Shown here one piece after another: positions 5,326 through 23,388 of a stretch of 64,000 bases of DNA. The DNA is from Methanoculleus horonobensis. GTDB taxonomy: Archaea > Halobacteriota > Methanomicrobia > Methanomicrobiales > Methanoculleaceae. The translations under genes were made by a program, and so were the position numbers. The stretch spans positions 62,001-126,000 of the forward strand of contig NZ_BCNY01000014.1 of NCBI RefSeq assembly GCF_001602375.1, in the 5' to 3' direction. Numbering within the stretch: position 1 is the stretch's first letter; every line of letters starts with the position of its first letter. Below the pieces are notes generated by a model, which was not told the origin of the DNA, did not search any database, and saw only the letters and a program-made list of their open reading frames with translations.

Positions 5326-5420
5326 GGAATCGATCACTGGTGCGGTTTTGCACGCAAAAAGCGTAGTGGTTCGCTCCCGACAATCCATTAATGAACGTGA
5401 ACTTCCAATAACTCTAGCAC

Positions 5421-6431
5421 GTGTTGGCGATATTCGACGGAACCTGGGTACGCCTCGGCGGTGAAGGGCGGGCGCTCTACGAGCAGGGCGGCTACGGGAG
5501 GCTCGAAGGAACCGGCCTCCGCCTCTCTCCCGAAGAGGCGCTCTACCTCATGGAGAGGAACAAGATCGACGTGAAGGACTTCGGTTTCGATGCCCTGCTC
5601 GGTCTCTTTGCCGGCCAGCCGAACTTCATCCGCAGGTATCTCGTATACCGTGACATCCGCGAGCGGGGATACGTGATCCAGCCCGGCCCGCAGGATTTCC
5701 GCGTCTTCCGCCGCGGCCACAAGCCCGGCGCGGGGAAGTCCCGGTACCTGATCCGGGTTCTCTCGGAGCGCGACATCGTCGATTTCGACCGGCTGAGCCA
5801 GGATGTGCTTGCCGCAGTCAACATGCGCAAGCAGTACCTCCTCGCGGTCGTCGACGACGAGGACGAACTGACCTACTACGAGGTGCGGGTGCAGGATCTC
5901 CCCGGGGTCGGGGAGCCTGCGGGATGCGCGACGCCGGTGGAGGCCACGCTCTTCGGGACCTACGCGCTCGCCCACCTGCCGCCGGGAACCCCGCTCGAGG
6001 AGGACTGGTACGGCAAGAGGCTCGATACCGAACGGCTGCTCCTGCGTCCGGTCGAGTCGATCTACCTCATGCGCAGACGCTGCCTCTCGATCGTGCAGGA
6101 TGGAAAACGGATGACCGCAGAGCAGTTCCTCGATGCGGCGTCGGGGAAGGATGTCGAGATCCGCGAGAAAGAGCGGGTCTTCTCCGATCTGCGGGAGAAA
6201 GGTTACATCCCCCGAACGGGCTACAAGTTCGGCCACCACTTCCGTGTCTACTCGGGAAAGAAGAGCCATTCCGAGATGCTCGTTCATGCTGTTCCGTCCG
6301 GGACATCCACGCCGATGAGCGGCGTCTCCCGCTCGGTCAGGCTTGCTCACAGCGTCAAAAAGAAGATGTTGTTTGGCTGCATATATAACAGCGATATCAG
6401 ATACGTCGAATTCGCCCGAATAAAACTGTGA
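5421..6431 (+). CDS. endA: tRNA-splicing endonuclease EndA (tRNA-intron lyase)
   Basis: A 336-residue protein of the fused-repeat euryarchaeal type, with two homologous halves (about 1-170 and 170-336), which works as a homodimer and cuts the bulge-helix-bulge motif of intron-containing pre-tRNAs. Only the second half carries the catalytic set: GYKFGHHFRVY (Tyr277), HSEMLVH (His283) and RLAHSVKKK (Lys about 313). The start is a GTG at 5421. It precedes trpS by 10 bases, and the end of the gene contains a TATA-like stretch that may serve trpS. Confidence 0.95.
   Translation: MLAIFDGTWVRLGGEGRALYEQGGYGRLEGTGLRLSPEEALYLMERNKIDVKDFGFDALLGLFAGQPNFIRRYLVYRDIRERGYVIQPGPQDFRVFRRGHKPGAGKSRYLIRVLSERDIVDFDRLSQDVLAAVNMRKQYLLAVVDDEDELTYYEVRVQDLPGVGEPAGCATPVEATLFGTYALAHLPPGTPLEEDWYGKRLDTERLLLRPVESIYLMRRRCLSIVQDGKRMTAEQFLDAASGKDVEIREKERVFSDLREKGYIPRTGYKFGHHFRVYSGKKSHSEMLVHAVPSGTSTPMSGVSRSVRLAHSVKKKMLFGCIYNSDIRYVEFARIKL
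6381..6388 (+). promoter_or_regulatory. TATA box candidate for trpS-pheS-pheT inside the endA 3' end
   Basis: ATATATAA lies about 60 bases before the trpS start in GC-rich coding DNA; it would give a leader of about 34 bases. Confidence 0.4.
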
Positions 6432-6441
6432 GCGTCAGTAC

Positions 6442-7698
6442 ATGCATTCAGAAGTGAACCCGTGGTCGAATAGCCAGACCGTTGATGTGGATCGACTCTT
6501 TGCCGAGTTCGGCATCGAGCCGGTCAGTGAGGTCGCACGAAGGCTTCCCGAAGTACCGTCGTTTATGCGCAGGGGTATCGTCGTCGGGCACCGGGACTAC
6601 AGCCTGGTGGCCGATGCAATCCGGAACCGCACCCCGTTTCACGTGCTGACCGGGTTCATGCCCTCGGGTCTCCCGCACCTCGGGCACCTGATGGTCATGA
6701 AAGAGGTCGTCTGGCACGTCCGGCAGGGCGGGAACGGCTACGTCGCCATCGCCGACCGGGAAGCGCACGCTGTCCGCGGCATCTCGTGGGAGAAGTGCCG
6801 CGAGTACGGGAAGGAGTACCTCAAAGCCCTCTATGCGCTGGGATTCGAGGGTAAGACCTACTACCAGAGCAGGAACGACCGCTTGAAAGACCTCGCGTTC
6901 GAGGCGTCCACGAAGGTGAACTTCTCGGAGCTCGCTGCGATCTATGGGTTCGGGCCGGAGACATCGCTCTCCCACGCCGTGAGCGTCATCACCCAGGTCG
7001 CCGACATCCTCTTCCCGCAGCTCGATGCCGGCCCTGCGCCGACGATCGTCCCGGTCGGCCTCGACCAGGACCCGCACATCCGGCTCACCCGGGACGTGGC
7101 CTACAAACTCAGGCAGTTCACGGTCGAGGATCGCGGCGACCATATCAGCGTCCGGTCGAAGAACGCTCCCGAGGAGGCTATCGAGGCGGTGCACCGCGCC
7201 TTCCCCGGCTCGAAGAAGTACGCGGGCCACGTCGATGTCAAGGGCCTTCCGAAGGCCCGGGTGGAGGACGCCGTCCGCGAGATCGAGATCGCTCACGGCG
7301 GGTTCGGGTTCTACCTCCCCTCGTCGACCTACCACATCTTCATGCCCGGGCTCCAGGGCGGGAAGATGTCGAGCAGCGTGCCCGAGAGTTCGTTCGGGTT
7401 CTACGAGTCCGACAAATCGATCAAGAAGAAGGTCATGGCGGCGATGACCGGCGGGCGGATGACGCTCGAGGAGCAGAAGCGTCTCGGGGGCGAGCCGGAC
7501 GCCTGCTCGGTCTATCTCCTGAATCTCTTCCACATGCTCGAGGACGACGTGGAACTCGCCGACCTGCGCCGCCGGTGCGAGAGCGGCGAACTCACCTGCG
7601 GGCAGTGCAAAAAGGAGACGCTGGAGCGCGTGAATGCGTTTCTTTCGGAGTTGCGGGATAAGATGGATGCGGTCGAGCATCTTGCAGAGGAGGTGTGA
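6442..7698 (+). CDS. trpS: Tryptophanyl-tRNA synthetase
   Basis: A 418-residue class I synthetase that charges tRNA-Trp. The HIGH-type motif is PSGLPHLGH (residues 74-82) and the KMSKS-type motif is KMSSS (308-312). The archaeal/eukaryotic form is shown by VGLDQDPHIRLTRD and by an N-terminal extension of about 60 residues. It is the first of a translation run with pheS and pheT and ends three bases before the pheS start. Confidence 0.97.
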   Translation: MHSEVNPWSNSQTVDVDRLFAEFGIEPVSEVARRLPEVPSFMRRGIVVGHRDYSLVADAIRNRTPFHVLTGFMPSGLPHLGHLMVMKEVVWHVRQGGNGYVAIADREAHAVRGISWEKCREYGKEYLKALYALGFEGKTYYQSRNDRLKDLAFEASTKVNFSELAAIYGFGPETSLSHAVSVITQVADILFPQLDAGPAPTIVPVGLDQDPHIRLTRDVAYKLRQFTVEDRGDHISVRSKNAPEEAIEAVHRAFPGSKKYAGHVDVKGLPKARVEDAVREIEIAHGGFGFYLPSSTYHIFMPGLQGGKMSSSVPESSFGFYESDKSIKKKVMAAMTGGRMTLEEQKRLGGEPDACSVYLLNLFHMLEDDVELADLRRRCESGELTCGQCKKETLERVNAFLSELRDKMDAVEHLAEEV

Positions 7699-7700
7699 CG

Positions 7701-9146
7701 GTGGAACTGACGCTGAACGAGAAGAGGCTCCTGGTTGCCCTGGGGCCGATGGGATCGGCCGACGCGGCCGTCCTTGCGGAGAAGATGGATACCCGCCGGG
7801 AAGCGGTGGTGCAGTACGCGAACCTCGCCGGTGATCGGGGGCTCGTCGACGTGGAGAAGCATGTCGCCCGGCGGTATGTCCCGACGGAGGAGGGCCGGGC
7901 CTACATGGGAAAGGGCCTCCCCGAGCGGCAGGTGCTCGATAGTTTCGAGGAGACGATCCCGATGCGCGATCTCCAGAGCCACCCGCTTGCGAAGATCGCC
8001 ATCGGCTGGATGCGCAAGAAGGGCTGGATTGCGATCACGGGCGGGGTTGTGCAGAAGACCGGCAAGACCGCTCCGGGCCCCGACGAAGCCGCGTTTGCCC
8101 GGCTCGCCGAAAAGGGCGAGATCGCCGACGGCGAGGGGGTTGCCGATCTCGCGAAGCGCGGGCTCGTCGAGGAGGAGGAGACCGTCGCCTACACCGTCTC
8201 GATGACGACCCGCGGCCGCGAACTCCTGAGCCAGGGCCTCGACCTCCGGGAAGAGGTGGGGACGCTCACCCGCGAGCAGATCCTCTCCGGCGAGTGGAAG
8301 ACTCTCCCTCTCCGGCGCTACGACGTCACGAAACTCCCGAAACGTGCCTATCCGGGAAAGGTTCATCCCTACCAGCGCATCATCGACGAGATGCGCGGCA
8401 TCCTCTTCGATATGGGGTTCGAGGAGATGTCGGGCGGGATCGTCCAGAGTTCGTTCTGGAACTTCGACGCCCTCTTCCAGCCGCAGGACCACCCGGCGCG
8501 GGAGATGCAGGACACCTTCTTCCTCGGCGAGCGCCGGCCGCTCCCGGCGGGATACGAGCGCGTCCGCGACATGCACGAGCACGGCGGCGGAACCTCGTCG
8601 ACCGGGTGGGGAGGCACCTGGAGCGCCGAGAAGGCGGAGCAGTGCGTGCTCCGGACACACACGACGAGCCTCTCGATCCAGCACCTCGCAGCGCACCCGA
8701 AGCCGCCGGTCAGGGCGTTCTGCATCGGCCGGGTCTACCGGCGGGAGGCGATCGATCCCACCCACCTCGCGGAGTTCGAACAGCTCGAGGGGATCGTGAT
8801 GGACGAAGACGTCAACCTGCGCCACCTCCTTGGGTTCTTGAAGGAGTTCTACGCCAAGATGGGCTTTGAGAAGGTCCGGTTCCGGCCCGGCTACTTCCCC
8901 TACACCGAGCCCTCCGTGGAGCCGGAGGTCTACGTCGACGGGCTCGGCTGGGTGGAGCTCGGTGGGTCGGGCATCTTCCGCCAGGAGGTGACCGAGCCCT
9001 TTGGAATCGAGCACCCGGTGCTCGCGTGGGGTCTCGGGATCAGCCGGGTGGCGATGCTCCGGCTCGGGCTGCGGGATCTCCGGCAGCTCTACCGGAGCGA
9101 CGTCGAGTGGGTCCGGGATACGCCCACCTACGGCGGGAGGCGGTAA
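7701..9146 (+). CDS. pheS: Phenylalanyl-tRNA synthetase alpha subunit
   Basis: A 481-residue class II synthetase subunit, archaeal type with N-terminal winged-helix segments (about 1-190) before the catalytic core. Motif 2 is [16 protein letters not shown]; motif 3 is [18 protein letters not shown] place the start at the GTG at 7701 because GAGGAGGTG lies just before it; a GTG at 7695 would sit inside that ribosome site. It forms an alpha2-beta2 enzyme with PheT, whose gene starts one base after the stop. Confidence 0.96.
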
Positions 9147-9147
9147 T

Positions 9148-10788
9148 ATGGCAATCATCACGCTACCCTACCGGTACCTGGAACGGCTGGCCGGCACCGA
9201 CCGGCAGACGATCATCGACCGCGTTCCGATGATCGGGGCCGACATCGAGCGGATCGAGGAAGACCACGTGGACGTCGAGTTCTTCCCGAACCGCCCCGAC
9301 CTCTACTCGCCCGAGGGTGTCGCCCGGGCGATGCGCGGGTTCCTCGGAATCGAGGAAGGGCTTCCGAACTACACCGTCCGCCCCTCCGGGATCACCTTCT
9401 CGGTCGACCCGAACCTTGCCGATATCCGGCCGTTCCTCGGCTCGGCCGTGATCCGGAACGTCAACCTCGACGAGGAGGGGATCGAGAGCCTGATGGCCCT
9501 CCAGGAAGCCCTCCACTGGGCGGTCGGGCGCGGGCGGGGCAAGGTGGCGATCGGCGTCCACGACCTCGATGCAGTCACGCCGCCGTTCCGCTACGTCGCC
9601 TCCCCCCGGAACCGCTCCTTCGTCCCGCTGGACTTCGAGCGGGAGATGACGATGGACGAGATGCTCGCCGACCACCCGAAGGGCCGGGACTACGCCCACC
9701 TGGTGGAGAACTTCGATAAGTTCCCGCTGATCGTCGATGCCGAGAACCGGGTGCTCTCCTTCCCGCCGATCATCAACGGCGAGCTGACGCGGGTCACGGC
9801 GGCGACGAAGAACATCCTGCTCGACTGCACCGGAACCGATAGAAAAGCGGTGATGACGGCGGTGAACATCATCTGCACGGCGCTCGCCGAGGCCGGGGCG
9901 ACGGTCGAGACCGTCACCGTCGAGGGAGAGGAGATGCCGACGCTTGCGCCGGTAGAGCGGGTCGTCTCGGTCGGGGAGTGCTCCCGCCTCCTCGGCCTCT
10001 CCCTCACACCGGAGGAGATGTCGCGGCTTCTCCGGCGGATGCGCTTTGACGCCGAACCCGACGGCGCTTCAAGGGTTCGGATCCTCGTCCCCTGCTACCG
10101 CTCGGACATCCTCCACGACTGGGATATCTTCGAGGACGTGGCGATCGCCTACGGCATCGAGAACTTCGATGCCGCCCTCCCGGCGACCTCCACGGTCGCA
10201 CAGGAGCACCCGATCAGTGCCATCACGGGAGCGGTCCGGTCGGTGATGACCGGTCTTGGGTACCTCGAGGCGATCCCGTTCACCCTGACAAACGAGCGGG
10301 TGCTGTATACGAACATGCAGCGGGAGCCCGCGCCCGGAACGCTCCGGCTGCTCCACCCGATCAGCGAGGAGCAGACGGTGGTCAGAACCGATCTCCTCCC
10401 CCTGCTGATGGAGATGCTCCAGGCAAACAAGCACCGCGAACTCCCGCAGAGGCTCTTTACGGTGGGCGATGTGGTCGCGGACTGCGTCACCTCCCAGATG
10501 GCCGCGGCGGTGAGCATCCATCCGGCGGCCGACTTCTCGGAGGCCTACGCGGCGGCGGACGTCCTCTGCCGGGAACTCTCGCTCACCTACACGGTCGCCG
10601 AGTCGGCCGACCCGGCGTTCCTCGACGGCCGCCGCGGGGATATCGTCGTCGACGGAAAAATAGTCGGGGTCTTCGGAGAGATCCACCCCGCCGTTCTCGG
10701 GGCGTTCGACCTCGAGCACCCGGTCGCGGCGCTCGCGCTCGATCTCAGAGCCGTACCGGGATACCCCGCCCTGCCAGATACTCCTTGA
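9148..10788 (+). CDS. pheT: Phenylalanyl-tRNA synthetase beta subunit
   Basis: A 546-residue subunit of the short archaeal form, without the bacterial tRNA-binding and anticodon-binding ends. [18 protein letters not shown] and [12 protein letters not shown] are typical B3/B4-B5 segments. The ATG at 9148 follows GGGAGGCGGTAAT and [12 protein letters not shown] is the usual archaeal start. The last 44 bases overlap the 3' end of hisF on the opposite strand. Confidence 0.96.
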
Positions 10789-13580: not shown

Positions 13581-14408
13581 ATGAAAGCATCAACCCCGGC
13601 AACCCTTGTTGCCCTGACCCTCATGATCATCGCCGGCCTCCTGGTTGCAGGATGCACGACCGCTCAGCAGGCGCCCGAGCAGACCACCCTGACCGTCTTT
13701 ACGGCCGCATCGCTCACGGGGGCCTTCACGGATATCGGCAAAGCCTACGAGGCAGAGAACGGAAACGTCAGGATCGATCTGGTCTTCGACGGATCGCAGG
13801 CCCTCCGCACCCAGATTGAGCAGGGAGCGAACCCCGATATCTTCGTCTCCGCGAGCACGAAGCACATGAAGGCCCTCCAGGACGGCGGGTTCATGGATGA
13901 CGGTACCGTGGCGCCGTTCCTCGGGAACAGCATGGCCCTGATCGTCCCGGCCGACAACCTGGCAAATGTCACCGGTCTGGCCGACCTGGCTGAACCGGGG
14001 ACAAAGATCGTCATCGGCACCAAAGACGTCCCCTTCGGCGACTACACCCGGCAGGTGCTCGATAAGATGGCCGCCGACCCCGCATACGGCCCGGCTTACC
14101 GGGACGCCGTGATGGAGAACGTCATCTCCGAGGAGACGGCGGTGAGCTCCGTGGTGCCCAAACTGACGCTCGGCGAGGCGGACGCGGCGTTCGTCTACAA
14201 GTCCGACGTCTCGAAGGACGACCTCGAGAAGGTGACGCGGATCGAGGTTCCGGCGGAGTACAACGTCATGGCCACGTACCCGCTCGGCATCCTTGCGGAG
14301 TCGCCGCACAGGGCCGAAGCGGAGTCCTTCATAGCGTTCGTCCGGGGCCCGGACGGCAGCGCCATCCTGACCGAGTATGGATTCGACCCCATTCCGGCAG
14401 AGTCCTGA
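13581..14408 (+). CDS. modA: Molybdate/tungstate ABC transporter, substrate-binding lipoprotein
   Basis: A 275-residue extracytoplasmic binding protein. The signal segment ends in the lipobox LVAGC (Cys25), so it is lipid-anchored. LTVFTAASLTGAF is the oxyanion-binding start of ModA-type proteins, with FDGSQALRTQIEQGANPDIF and VIGTKDVPFG as further ligand loops. It could equally be WtpA-type; the sequence does not settle molybdate versus tungstate. First gene of modABC plus a small membrane protein. Confidence 0.92.
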   Translation: MKASTPATLVALTLMIIAGLLVAGCTTAQQAPEQTTLTVFTAASLTGAFTDIGKAYEAENGNVRIDLVFDGSQALRTQIEQGANPDIFVSASTKHMKALQDGGFMDDGTVAPFLGNSMALIVPADNLANVTGLADLAEPGTKIVIGTKDVPFGDYTRQVLDKMAADPAYGPAYRDAVMENVISEETAVSSVVPKLTLGEADAAFVYKSDVSKDDLEKVTRIEVPAEYNVMATYPLGILAESPHRAEAESFIAFVRGPDGSAILTEYGFDPIPAES

Positions 14409-14409
14409 G

Positions 14410-15222
14410 GTGACCCGGCCCGAAGGTGGCCTGGCGCGAGTCTCGAGGGCGGGTCTTGCCCTCCTCGTCGCCGCCCTCGTCGCCCTCTTCCTCCTCTTCG
14501 TCACGCTGCCGGTCGCCTCGCTCTTCCTGCGCATATCGCCTGAGGCGTTCCTCCGGTCGCTCGCCGAACCGGTGGTGCTCGACGCGCTCTCCCTCTCGCT
14601 AGCCACCGCGACGGTGAGCACGGCGATCGTCGTCGTCTTCGGGACGCCGCTTGCCCTGGTGAATGCCCGGCACGACTACCCGGGGAGGGCGATCGTCGAT
14701 ACGCTCACCGATCTCCCCATCGTCCTGCCGCCGGCGGTGGCGGGCATCGCACTCCTCATGGCGTTCGGCCGCCGGGGCGTGGTCGGGCAGTACCTCGACC
14801 AATTCGGTATCAGCATCGCCTTCACCACGGTCGCGGTGATCCTCGCGCAGGTCTTCGTGGCCTCGCCGTTCTACATCCGGCAGGCGAGGGCGAGTTTCGA
14901 GGCGGTCGACCGCATCTACGAGGATGCGGCCCGGACGCTCGGGGCATCCCCCATGAAGGTCGCCCTCCGGGTCACCATCCCGCTTGCTTGGGGCGGGCTC
15001 ATCTCGGGTGCGATACTCTCGTTCGCCCGGGCGCTCGGGGAGTTCGGCGCCACGATCATGTTTGCCGGAAACTTCCAGGGACGAACCCAGACGATGCCGC
15101 TTGCCATCTACACGACGATGCAGGGCGACCTCGATGCCGCGATCAGCCTCGCGATCGTCCTCGTCGTGATATCGTTTGCGGTGATCGCCGCGGTGAAGAT
15201 CATGACCCGGCGGAGGCTCTGA
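14410..15222 (+). CDS. modB: Molybdate/tungstate ABC transporter, permease
   Basis: A 270-residue permease with about six transmembrane segments. EDAARTLGASPMKVALRVTI is the EAA coupling loop that docks on the ATPase. I take the GTG at 14410, two bases after the modA stop; an ATG at 14377 in the same frame would overlap modA by 32 bases and add polar residues. The stop overlaps the modC start by one base (TGATG). Confidence 0.92.
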   Translation: MTRPEGGLARVSRAGLALLVAALVALFLLFVTLPVASLFLRISPEAFLRSLAEPVVLDALSLSLATATVSTAIVVVFGTPLALVNARHDYPGRAIVDTLTDLPIVLPPAVAGIALLMAFGRRGVVGQYLDQFGISIAFTTVAVILAQVFVASPFYIRQARASFEAVDRIYEDAARTLGASPMKVALRVTIPLAWGGLISGAILSFARALGEFGATIMFAGNFQGRTQTMPLAIYTTMQGDLDAAISLAIVLVVISFAVIAAVKIMTRRRL

Positions 15223-17365: not shown

Positions 17366-18277
17366 TTATTCTTTCTTCTCATCCTTCATCTGCTGGTAGA
17401 CGCAGGACTGAACGTCCTGGCCCAGTTTCCCGATCGCGTCCGCCCGGCAGCGTGCGCAGTGGCGCATCTGCTTGATGTACGGGGCGCACTGATCCTGCAT
17501 CTCCCGCTTCTCCTTCGACGTCGGGGGGGTGATGTCGGCGAACTTGTACTGCGGGATGAGCGGGATGACATTGAAGGTGAACGCCCCCATCTCCCCGACC
17601 TTCTTTGCGATCTCGGGGATGTGCTCGTCGTTGATCCCGGGGATGTAGACGGTGTTGATCTTGACGAACATCTTCTTCGCGACCGCCATCTCGATCCCCT
17701 TCATCTGCTGGGAGAGGAGGAGTTCGGCCGCCTCGCGCCCGTGGTACTTCTTCCCGTCGTACTCGACCCAGGAGTAGATCTTCTCGCCGATAGCAGGGTC
17801 GACGGCGTTGAGCGTGACCGTGACGTTCCCGACGTCGTACTTCGCGAGTTCCTCGATCGACTCGGGAAGCGCGAGACCGTTCGTGCTGATGCACATGATC
17901 AGGTGCGGGAACTCCTCGTGGATCAGCCGCAGTGCCTCGAAGGTCTCCGGGTTTGCGAGCGGTTCGCCCGGCCCCGCGATCCCGACCACCTTCACGTACG
18001 GGTACTCCTTGACGACGTTCCTGACGAGATCGAGCGCCTCCTCCGGGGCGAGCACCCTGCTCGTCACGCCCGGCCGGCTCTCGTTCACGCAGTCGAAGTC
18101 CCGTATGCAGTAGTTGCACTGGATGTTGCACTTCGGGGCGACGGGGACGTGACACCGCCCGAAGGCGTGGCACGCTTTATCGGAGTAGCAGGGGTGCTCG
18201 CTGATCTTGCGCAGCTGCTCCGGATCGTAAGGAACCTCCCTGCCCTGGACCGTCGCGGTCCGATACTCGTCGGCCAT
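17366..18277 (-). CDS. nifB: Nitrogenase cofactor biosynthesis radical SAM protein NifB
   Basis: A 303-residue radical SAM enzyme. The cluster motif is C50-NIQ-C54-NY-C57, preceded by the NifB-specific HPCYSDKACHAFGRCHVP that binds the additional iron-sulfur clusters. It builds NifB-co, the 8Fe-9S-C precursor of nitrogenase cofactors. The NifX-like domain of many bacterial NifB proteins is absent, as usual in methanogens. A closing Cys-rich stretch (HCARCRADAIG, then VQSCVYQQ) is also typical. No nitrogenase structural gene is in the window; the Mo/W transporter is 1.4 kb away. Confidence 0.95.
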   Translation of the reverse strand: MADEYRTATVQGREVPYDPEQLRKISEHPCYSDKACHAFGRCHVPVAPKCNIQCNYCIRDFDCVNESRPGVTSRVLAPEEALDLVRNVVKEYPYVKVVGIAGPGEPLANPETFEALRLIHEEFPHLIMCISTNGLALPESIEELAKYDVGNVTVTLNAVDPAIGEKIYSWVEYDGKKYHGREAAELLLSQQMKGIEMAVAKKMFVKINTVYIPGINDEHIPEIAKKVGEMGAFTFNVIPLIPQYKFADITPPTSKEKREMQDQCAPYIKQMRHCARCRADAIGKLGQDVQSCVYQQMKDEKKE

Positions 18278-18358: not shown

Positions 18359-20350
18359 TCAGGCCGTTTCCTGGCTGAGGTCGAACGGGAGGTGTTCCTT
18401 GCCGGCCTCCTGCGTATCCCGCTCCGGCTCCATACCAAACCGTTCCTCCGCGGCTTTCAGGATCCGGCCGAGCATCTCGGCGTAGGTCAGGCCCGCGTAC
18501 TTCGCCATCCTGGCGAGGTGACCGTCCCAGCACCAGCCGGGGTTCGGGTTGACCTCGAGGAGTTTCGGGTTGCCGTGCTCGTCGAGCCGCCAGTCGAACC
18601 GGCAGTAGTCGCGGCACTCCAGGCGTTCGAAGAGGGCGAGGCAGCACCGCACGATCACCTTCTCGATCTCCTCGGGGAGATCCGCCGGCTTTGAGGTGAT
18701 CTTCCAGTACGGCGAGTCCGGGAGCCACTTCGCCTCGTAGCCGCAGATGCGGGGGAGATTCGGCGGCAGCGCGGAGTAGTCCTCCTCGATGACGGGCAGC
18801 ACCATGCTGTATCCCGACGGATTCCCGATGATCCCGACGCTGATGTCTTTTCCCGTGAGGAACTCCTCGACGAGGAGCGAGCGGTCGTAGCCGAGCGTCA
18901 TCCGCAGCGTATTGATGATGTCGGAGAGTTCCTCGATGGAGTGGGCGATGCTCTCTTGCGTGATGCCGAACGAGGAGTCGCCGGCGTTCGGCTTGACGAT
19001 CGCCGGGAACTGCATCCCGACGTCGTAGGTGCGGTCGCCGGGGGTGATGAAGCAGGCGTCCGGCACCGGGATCCCCATCTCCTTCGCAATCCCGCGCACG
19101 AGCGATTTGTCGTAGCAGAACGCGAGCGACTGCGGCCCGGCTCCCGTGTACGGGATCCCGTACATATCGAGGAGCGCCGGCACGTGGAGTTCTTTCCTCG
19201 CGTCGTTGTTGAACCCCTCGTCGCAGAGGTTGAAGACGTAGTCCACCTTCCCCTTCAGCCGCGGGAGATCCTGGATCAGCGTCTCGTGTTTGCAGAGGTA
19301 GGTGAACCGGTAACCGGGCAGTTCCCGCAGCGCCGCCTTCATCTGGTCGATGGTGTAGAAGTCGTCGTCGTCGAAGGTGCAGGAGGGTTTCAGGGCGTCG
19401 GGCCTTGCCGGGTCGCCGAGGAGCACCGCGACGTGTTTTGCCGTCTCCCGGCCTTTCGTCTTCGTCGCAGACCATTCCTTCCTGACCTGCGCGGTGACGA
19501 TGTGGCGGCGCTCCATCATGCCGAGATCCTGGTTGCGCTGCGACTCGGTCGCGATCTCGTGGAAGGCGATGCCTGAGAACCCCGCCTTCTCAAGGAGCCG
19601 CCGGAGCGCCTCTGGGGTGTAGAGGTGCTCGGCGTAGAACTGGTCGGCCACGACGCCCTTCTCGACGTCGGTGATCACCTCGCGGGATATCAGGCGCTGG
19701 TCGTCGAACGAGAGCGATCTCTCGCGGCAGACGAACATGGCGTCGTCGATCCACTCCCACGACCTCGGCTGGAAGTGTTCTTTTAAGTACTCGCCGTCGG
19801 CGACGTCCAGGAGCACCCGGCCCCAGGGTTTGAGGATGCGCCGGATCTCGGTGAGGATCCGGAGATCCTCCTCGACGGAGTCGAAGTAGCCGAAACTGTT
19901 CCCGAGGATGAGGACGACGTCGTAGGTGTCGGTGCGGTACGGGAGCCGCCGGGCGTCTCCCTCCCGGAACCGGATGGGAAGCCCCTCTTTCTTCGCGGTC
20001 GACCGGGCCCGCTGGATCAGGTAGTGCGACTGGTCGAGGCCTTCGGCGCTGTAGCCCCTGCGCGCGAGTTCGAGGGTGTGCCTGCCCTGGCCACAGCAGA
20101 GATCGAGGACTTTTTCGTGGGGCTGGAGGTGCAGAACCCGGGCGATCCGGTCGATCTCCCGCTCGGTGATCCGCGGGTCGTCGACGACGTCGCCGTCGGT
20201 CTTTAAGTAGAGGCGATTGAAGATTCCTCTCCACCAGTCGGGTTTTACATGGTCTTCAAGGTTCGGGACCGGACCGATTGTTCTCCTGTCCCGGTGTTTC
20301 CCCTTGCGTCTGCTATCGGGAGGCTCGTCGGTGTGGACCTCGTCGATCAT
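18359..20350 (-). CDS. Fusion of SAM-dependent methyltransferase and D-Ala-D-Ala-ligase-like ATP-grasp domain
   Basis: A 663-residue two-domain protein. Residues about 35-300 are a class I methyltransferase: motif I is VLDLCCGQGRHTLELA (81-96), followed by the acidic motif II EGLDQS and a post-I region DVVLILGNSFGYFD. Residues about 310-640 are an ATP-grasp ligase of the D-alanine-D-alanine ligase type: PYTGAGPQSLAFCYDK, FPAIVKPNAGDSSFG, LVEEFLTGKDISVG and the metal site LLEVNPNPGW. Methanogens of this group have no murein, so the substrate is unlikely to be D-Ala-D-Ala; an amino-acid or peptide ligation coupled to methylation is possible. The ATG at 20350 follows GGGGAG. The upstream open frame is not convincing as coding. 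Confidence 0.88.
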   Translation of the reverse strand: MIDEVHTDEPPDSRRKGKHRDRRTIGPVPNLEDHVKPDWWRGIFNRLYLKTDGDVVDDPRITEREIDRIARVLHLQPHEKVLDLCCGQGRHTLELARRGYSAEGLDQSHYLIQRARSTAKKEGLPIRFREGDARRLPYRTDTYDVVLILGNSFGYFDSVEEDLRILTEIRRILKPWGRVLLDVADGEYLKEHFQPRSWEWIDDAMFVCRERSLSFDDQRLISREVITDVEKGVVADQFYAEHLYTPEALRRLLEKAGFSGIAFHEIATESQRNQDLGMMERRHIVTAQVRKEWSATKTKGRETAKHVAVLLGDPARPDALKPSCTFDDDDFYTIDQMKAALRELPGYRFTYLCKHETLIQDLPRLKGKVDYVFNLCDEGFNNDARKELHVPALLDMYGIPYTGAGPQSLAFCYDKSLVRGIAKEMGIPVPDACFITPGDRTYDVGMQFPAIVKPNAGDSSFGITQESIAHSIEELSDIINTLRMTLGYDRSLLVEEFLTGKDISVGIIGNPSGYSMVLPVIEEDYSALPPNLPRICGYEAKWLPDSPYWKITSKPADLPEEIEKVIVRCCLALFERLECRDYCRFDWRLDEHGNPKLLEVNPNPGWCWDGHLARMAKYAGLTYAEMLGRILKAAEERFGMEPERDTQEAGKEHLPFDLSQETA

Positions 20351-22971: not shown

Positions 22972-23388
22972 ATGATCGACAATTCCAGGGAGACGGGAGG
23001 GGTCTTCTCCCCTCCGGAGACCGTATACGTCGGTTCGTCGGGGTGCCGCGGGCGGGGCGTCTTCGCCCGCAGGGATCTTGCGGCCGGCGAGTTGATCGAG
23101 ACCTGTCCGGTGGTCGTGCTCGGGGGGGCGGACGAGCAGGAACTTCTCGATAAGACGCACCTCTTCGACTACTACTTCGCGTGGGGGGAGCTCGCCGCCG
23201 TGGCGCTGGGCTACGGGTCGCTCTACAACCACTCCTACCACGCGAACGCGGATCACGTCTGCGATCTCCTCCAGGGCGCGATCCGCATCTCCGCCCACCG
23301 CCCCATCTCGAAGGACGAGGAGATCACCATCAACTACGGCGGGCCGGCGGACTGTCCCGATCCCGTCTGGTTCGATGCGGAGGAGTGA
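22972..23388 (+). CDS. Small SET-domain protein (putative protein-lysine methyltransferase)
   Basis: 138 residues forming little more than a SET domain. The motifs are GRGVFARRDLAAGELIE (N-terminal strand and SAM loop), YGSLYNHSYHANAD (the NHS-x-N pseudoknot motif) and DEEITINYG. SET enzymes use SAM to methylate lysines; the target is unknown. The ATG at 22972 gives the normal SET start. The frame is open for 2 kb upstream, but that stretch is the antisense of the ABC exporter genes and is not coding. Confidence 0.85.
   Translation: MIDNSRETGGVFSPPETVYVGSSGCRGRGVFARRDLAAGELIETCPVVVLGGADEQELLDKTHLFDYYFAWGELAAVALGYGSLYNHSYHANADHVCDLLQGAIRISAHRPISKDEEITINYGGPADCPDPVWFDAEE

Follow-up and report, generated by a model that had tools for sequence, protein, structure and literature searches.

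Which reaction, or pair of reactions, is catalysed by an archaeal protein in which a methyltransferase is joined to a ligase resembling those that make D-alanyl-D-alanine? The question is raised by a gene of Methanoculleus horonobensis located in the window, that is, the whole stretch of 64,000 nucleotides that was analysed (contig NZ_BCNY01000014.1, positions 62,001 to 126,000). The first-pass annotation had described its product as a single 663-residue protein containing a class I methyltransferase and an ATP-grasp ligase, both complete, had read the fusion as two consecutive steps on one substrate and had not expected the natural D-Ala-D-Ala role in these archaea. The ligase label alone would mislead towards peptidoglycan chemistry in archaea. 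The gene and the parts of it considered here are:

18359..20350, minus strand: fused methyltransferase/ATP-grasp ligase P0001, 663 amino acids (open frame, Pfam)
19484..20236, minus strand: class I SAM methyltransferase half, residues 39-289 (Pfam, conservation, fold)
18419..19444, minus strand: ATP-grasp ligase half with the D-Ala-D-Ala-ligase fold, residues 303-644 (Pfam, fold, residues)
18518..18535, minus strand: rebuilt acceptor loop W606-C-W-D-G-H611, against M277-T-S-H-S-L282 of E. coli DdlB (alignment)

One reading frame in many phyla

The minus-strand frame runs without interruption from 20350 to 18359, with 663 codons followed by a stop. The longest mechanical ORF reaches upstream to 20599 (746 amino acids); the 663-residue start is supported by the frames of several Methanoculleus relatives (e.g., L012, L014 and L015), which open at residue 1 of this form. 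Pfam places Methyltransf_25 at residues 81-177 (E 2e-20, 73.7 bits against a curated cut-off of 27) and Dala_Dala_lig_C (PF07478) at residues 423-631 (E 2.4e-26, above the curated cut-off), and the frame, these matches and the folds described in the next section confirm that both enzymes are whole within one protein. An AlphaFold2 model of the entire chain, built on 62 natural sequences, reached a mean pLDDT of 82.3; owing to a pTM of 0.56 and a poorly predicted linker (residues 297-302, low confidence), it does not fix the relative placement of the halves.

Relatives are encoded by at least 583 stretches in a collection of genomes from 84,980 species, and the best 80 of them were kept. Among the matches listed are Methanoculleus, other Methanomicrobiales, Methanophagales, Jordarchaeia, Planctomycetes, Deltaproteobacteria, Atribacteria, Aminicenantes, Zixibacteria, Dehalococcoidia and others; the copies from other phyla, within the best 80 of at least 583, cover the full length or almost all of it and show 61-69% identity to the Methanoculleus fusion. 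Matches at E <= 1e-20 occur in 54 of 150 genomes of the own order, those of G104 and G131 by one half only and weakly. At thresholds of 1e-90 or 1e-100, and with phylum labels following the loci used as search centres, the fusion was found in 31 of 50 genomes of Atribacterota, 8 of 294 of Planctomycetota, 6 of 347 of Acidobacteriota, 3 of 132 of Zixibacteria and 2 of 350 of Chloroflexota, while Desulfobacterota gave a long match to the fusion in 7 of 247 genomes and any match at 1e-30 in 84 of the same 247. A search of plasmids returned only weak, half-length matches and PADLOC only generic domain matches. The architecture recurs, full length, in many phyla, and the hosts of the fusion include many unrelated bacteria and archaea that avoid oxygen. 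High identity between domains of life, together with a scattered distribution, suggests that the gene was transferred repeatedly while strongly constrained.

Since the uninterrupted fusion is found in so many phyla, it is neither a chance joining nor a sequencing frameshift, and two genes joined by a frameshift, which the annotation had named as a finding that would refute it, are ruled out by the open frame and by the full-length fused copies. Broken copies occur singly in the own-order search (G004, G013 and one copy of G049): those of G004 and G013 are interrupted by a stop or lack a part, and contig G049:C1 (L208, L285) holds two full copies with identical scores beside the broken third. 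The Chloroflexota copy L279 (G1161:C34) carries about 80 extra codons between the halves, in a frame of 793 codons. The annotation had also asked whether relatives encode the halves as neighbouring genes: full-length fused copies predominate among close relatives in each group searched, and no split pair of close relatives was found there. Stand-alone relatives of each half do exist, with up to 51% identity for the methyltransferase and up to 41% for the ATP-grasp (Desulfobacterota search).

Conserved cofactor sites and a replaced acceptor pocket

Residues were compared in a 62-member alignment (A1) drawn from loci L049-L113, from which L052, L053, L065, L073, L074, L089, L096, L105 and L112 are omitted as near-copies, contig edges or loci with no clean anchor frame, and which holds in addition just 6 of the Methanoculleus-type sequences. 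The N-terminal half displays motif I (DLCCGQGRH), the acidic D106 and the block G150-N-S-F-G-Y-F. The SAM motif residues D83, G87, G89 and D106 are present in 62 of 62 members, and R90 and the G150-N-S block are also kept across them. Modelled alone, residues 22-298 gave a pLDDT of 91.2, and the model aligned to the class I methyltransferase 3d2l over 225 residues (Z 25.3, rmsd 2.5). Membership of the class I SAM methyltransferases is indicated by a Pfam score above the cut-off, a Rossmann-type fold, motif I and the acidic motif II residue. The nearest solved methyltransferase by sequence is 9ri2 (E 4.1e-25; profile E 2.6e-45), whose title is bacillithiol methyltransferase NmbA, an enzyme that we take to methylate the amine of bacillithiol. 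N-methyltransferases are frequent among the fold matches (TylM1, CypM, GSMT); since C-methyltransferases stand among the tied rows, methylation of a nitrogen by this half is no more than likely.

A stand-alone methyltransferase 51% identical to this half is present in G262, a genome with no ATP-grasp match at E <= 1e-30. Other stand-alone relatives, about 40% identical, adjoin a family of 465 amino acids and a DUF885 gene, and the three form a conserved trio in L169-L173 of Desulfobacterota. The 465-residue family has a lysine motif resembling that of ATP-grasp enzymes and weakly matches a putative glutathionylspermidine synthase (profile E 0.029), which suggests another methyltransferase/ATP-grasp pairing.

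The C-terminal half, modelled as residues 303-644, aligns lengthwise to E. coli DdlB (1iow; Z 28.6, rmsd 2.5, 293 aligned, 26% identity) and to 1ehi (Z 29.3, rmsd 3.6, 313 aligned). It retains K415, K453, E495, K541, R584, D586, E599 and N601; across the alignment, K415, K453, E495, K541, R584, D586 and N601 are present in 62 of 62 members, E599 and D502 in 61 of 62, with Asp502 at the position of DdlB E187. All of the DdlB residues K97, K144, E180, E187, K215, R255, D257, E270 and N272, which we take to be those binding ATP/Mg, are thus matched, and the ligase half is therefore not decayed in the members examined, contrary to the concern that it might be inactive in relatives.

The residues expected to confer specificity have been replaced. 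With the E. coli DdlB and DdlA sequences as controls, the catalytic Tyr216 of DdlB corresponds to Trp542 in 62 of 62 members, Ser281-Leu282 to Gly610-His611 in 62 of 62 (Gly/Lys in four divergent fusions) and His63 to Glu378 in the fusion; Asp-Gly-His is found in the acceptor loop of all 62 aligned members. Ser150 is kept in 59 of 62, and Glu15 falls opposite Phe326, where the alignment is uncertain. Accordingly, neither Glu15-Ser150-Tyr216, presumably the DdlB triad, nor the Ser281/Leu282 pair that presumably holds the acceptor carboxylate is present as such. The NCBIfam Ddl models score far below their cut-offs (PRK01372, 124.6 against 243 bits; TIGR01205, 120.5 against 245.65). Within its own genome, no other Dala_Dala_lig_C match comes near that of the fusion; the four others belong to frames of 501 codons, 1064 codons (two matches) and 300 codons, and the match in the 300-codon frame is below the cut-off. 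As judged from the aligned residues, the ligase half is unlike the cell-wall enzyme and its pocket differs from that of D-Ala-D-Ala ligases; a canonical Ddl role was rejected on the specificity residues and the sub-cut-off scores. The earlier expectation of no D-Ala-D-Ala role thus holds, but its restriction to these archaea does not: the fusion is widespread in bacteria, so the missing bacterial cell wall of the host is not the argument.

Gene neighbourhoods and polyamine clusters

Most fused genes stand alone as one-gene units, and polyamine genes were found near the fusion at 1 of 141 fused loci examined (some genomes counted twice). In the analysis of recurrent neighbours, L052, L053 and L112 had no anchor and L089 was skipped. 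Genes noted near the fusion in the window are:

17366..18277, minus strand: NifB-like radical SAM protein, 303 amino acids, next gene downstream (Pfam, NCBIfam)
13581-15222, plus strand: molybdate ABC transporter genes, ModA and ModB type
23050-23340, plus strand: SET-domain protein, about 2.7 kb from the fusion

The NifB-like protein exceeds the TIGR01290 cut-off while matching just the first 281 of 441 model positions; it is nearby only in Methanoculleus and near relatives and was rejected as a functional partner, and a link of the fusion to SET-domain and ABC neighbours is weak. In L167, two SET frames (7017-7778), the second of them homologous to the SET protein of the window, precede the closest stand-alone methyltransferase relative (51%). 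The gene immediately upstream of the fusion encodes a CorA or MgtE magnesium transporter at four Atribacterota loci, one Acidobacteriota locus and L072, with the family assigned by homology in the first five (two of them Pfam-scanned), which is too little to build on. Positions for three of the six are:

L271, 6377-7444: CorA/MgtE magnesium transporter
L280, 6535-7575: CorA/MgtE magnesium transporter
L072, 1323-2675: CorA/MgtE magnesium transporter

An AstE/AspA-family hydrolase, which gives no hint of polyamines, recurs beside the fusion in at least two lineages (L063, L099, L106); it is encoded in 6 of 16 fused genomes searched, absent from the other 10 and from the window's own genome, and was rejected as a required partner. 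After the fusion in L099 (8964-16408) and L178, this hydrolase belongs to a run that includes a Ddl-like ATP-grasp fused to an M20-like hydrolase, a gamma-glutamyltranspeptidase, an N-formylglutamate amidohydrolase, a GNAT-nitrilase and an amino acid permease; the run fits general amide-conjugate metabolism better than polyamines in particular. No small precursor gene recurs among the recurrent neighbour families, as seen with a gene caller that skips frames below about 45 codons.

The single locus with polyamine genes is an operon of Zixibacteria SM23_81 (L070):

5356-5931: arginine decarboxylase
5970-6989: deoxyhypusine-synthase family (PRK00805, 441.8 against a cut-off of 434)
6944-7915: agmatinase
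7923-9956: the fusion, fourth gene, after a gap of 7 bases

We take SpeY to be a deoxyhypusine-synthase-family protein of the type encoded here. Bacterial clusters of arginine decarboxylase, SpeB and SpeY are presented as homospermidine pathways in a passage of PMC10407285, and it is because of this description that the operon is read as homospermidine-type. A close agmatinase was found in 39 genomes of Zixibacteria and 20 of the 39 loci were examined; in ten of the 20, the next gene downstream (in one case after a gap of 1.4 kb) encodes a stand-alone methyltransferase that is a relative of the fusion's half, with tblastn E values of 3e-27 to 2e-42; for comparison, three other methyltransferases encoded in the own genome gave blastp E values of 1e-12 to 1e-14. 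A weak methyltransferase in another position (L324) was left out of this count. The ten loci probably represent one inherited arrangement and are therefore counted as one event. The 1120-residue gene that follows the methyltransferase is mfd, a bystander. Since the fusion and a separate polyamine operon coexist in at least two genomes of Zixibacteria, in G516 with its own related methyltransferase and in G536 without one, the relationship is not one of simple replacement.

A further link to polyamines comes from the ligase half. The Desulfobacterota search also gave stand-alone ATP-grasps, 30-41% identical to it and many of them side by side in twos; the closest (34-41%) are often tandem pairs, whose Ddl-like members we name AG1 and AG2 and for which no function was found in print. 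Of the many ATP-grasp loci in this phylum, 12 were taken for neighbourhood analysis: a pyruvoyl arginine decarboxylase and an agmatinase lie beside the pair in eight (L159-L166), four of which additionally have a deoxyhypusine-synthase-family gene, and no polyamine genes were found in the remaining four (L174-L177). The methyltransferases of these polyamine clusters are distant from the fusion's half (E 4e-9 to 6e-12). At L176 (G192:C6:330000-344000), the ATP-grasp match is surrounded by a frame of 24,479 codons, a 2455-codon part of which has a Pfam match only near its end, to Dala_Dala_lig_C.

In a tree of 33 rows, from which L177 was left out as one of its two frames failed to align as an ATP-grasp, the fusion and AG2 split from AG1, DdlA, DdlB and two others with a support of 100/95, whereas AG2 as a group of its own is weakly supported (66/30); on this tree, the fusion's ligase half and AG2 are sisters. 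In the acceptor loop, the 11 fusions compared and the eight AG2 from polyamine loci all carry Asp609, which is found in neither the three other AG2 (which have Asn, Pro and Gly) nor the three Ddl. The corresponding loop of DdlB presumably binds a carboxylate, and an acidic residue here would suit a cationic acceptor; the pattern could also be one of shared descent.

Candidate reactions and related systems

We regard it as probable that the protein combines a methyltransferase with an amide ligase for some small molecule other than D-Ala-D-Ala. The N-terminal half would use SAM to methylate its substrate, probably at an amine, as suggested by its nearest relatives; the C-terminal half, by analogy with its fold family, would activate a carboxylate with ATP to an acyl phosphate and join it to an amine, giving an amide. 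The fusion itself suggests that both halves work on one small molecule, and the two consecutive steps proposed by the annotation are plausible. The candidate amine is a polyamine of the putrescine/homospermidine kind, to which the gene neighbourhood and one acidic residue point, and the product would then be an N-methylated acyl- or aminoacyl-polyamine conjugate. A bifunctional amine methyltransferase/amide ligase acting on a small amine, with a polyamine as the best-supported candidate, is a reading to which we give slightly less than half of our confidence, and the polyamine as the amine substrate is, on its own, a shade more tentative. Against the polyamine speak the 140 of 141 fused loci with no such genes nearby, the four of 12 ATP-grasp loci that likewise have none, the Zixibacteria genomes in which fusion and polyamine operon lie apart and the distant methyltransferases of the Desulfobacterota clusters.

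The polyamine loci and Asp609 also bear on a different product, namely a non-polyamine N-methylated dipeptide, low-molecular-weight thiol or osmolyte, in which the ligase would join two amino acids (or cysteine and another unit) and the methyltransferase would cap the amine in the manner of NmbA. That NmbA is the nearest solved methyltransferase, with glycine/sarcosine N-methyltransferases also close, speaks for such a product, as do the gene run of L099/L178, the AstE/AspA genes adjoining the fusion in L063 and L106 and the prevalence of one-gene units, which suit a self-contained product; however, the ligase half groups as sister with the AG2 found in polyamine operons, Asp609 is ill-suited to an acceptor bearing a carboxylate, and AstE/AspA is missing from 10 of the 16 fused genomes and from the own genome, so that we hold this alternative to be unlikely, while giving it appreciable weight. 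Modification of a protein or ribosomal peptide, with methylation and an amide link on a side chain, is suggested by the NCBIfam daptide RiPP methyltransferase model and CypM, to which the methyltransferase half or proteins related to it are remotely akin, yet the recurrent neighbours include no small precursor (at the caller's limit of about 45 codons) and the ligase has the D-Ala-D-Ala fold, whose known members join small molecules; we regard it as improbable.

Equally improbable is that the halves do unrelated jobs and were brought together for regulatory reasons or by chance: the model shows little order in the linker and the methyltransferase of G262 stands without an ATP-grasp match at E <= 1e-30, but fused full-length copies dominate among close relatives and split ones were not found in the groups searched. 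Least credible of all is a genuine D-Ala-D-Ala (or D-Ala-D-Lac/Ser) ligase to which a methyltransferase has been added, which shares the fold and the ATP site but is opposed by Trp542 and His611 (at Tyr216 and Leu282 of DdlB) in 62 of 62 members and by 124.6 bits against a cut-off of 243.

Returning to the amine methyltransferase/amide ligase, a bolder extension, which we think doubtful, is that the fusion and AG1/AG2 form an undescribed branch of polyamine metabolism, spread by gene transfer through Bacteria and Archaea and making N-methylated aminoacyl-polyamines, as an independently invented anaerobic counterpart of glutathionylspermidine or N-methyl-bacillithiol. If true, such a conjugate would be an overlooked small molecule of subsurface anaerobes. 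Given the polyamine lead, one purified protein is enough for a direct test of the product. A survey of ATP-grasp amidoligases was reportedly made by Iyer and colleagues (2009). No paper on this fusion or its function was found in the open full-text literature, which leaves subscription papers largely outside, and the ATP-grasp passage of an article on archaeal fusions concerns a different one (PMC11237513). Both domains are of known kinds; their combination and spread seem undescribed in the open literature searched, where a highly conserved two-domain enzyme of 31 of 50 Atribacterota and 54 of 150 own-order genomes is without an assigned function.

Among known systems, NmbA of Chlorobaculum tepidum (PDB 9ri2) is the nearest solved sequence to the methyltransferase half; it is a stand-alone enzyme and about a quarter of the aligned residues are identical. 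Ddl (PF07478/PF01820) and VanA-type ligases share with residues 303-644 the fold and the ATP/Mg residues, and differ in that the fusion has Trp542 for Tyr216, the Trp-Cys-Trp-Asp-Gly-His loop and Glu378 for His63. Glutathionylspermidine synthase and trypanothione-type enzymes are ATP-grasp proteins that ligate an amide to a polyamine, a reaction they would have in common with the fusion if the proposed function is right; they presumably belong to another ATP-grasp lineage and have no methyltransferase. AG2 of the Desulfobacterota polyamine clusters has Trp542, Glu378 and Asp609 in common with the fusion, whereas AG1 and AG2 are stand-alone, paired and 34-41% identical to it, and the fusion combines one ligase with a methyltransferase of its own.
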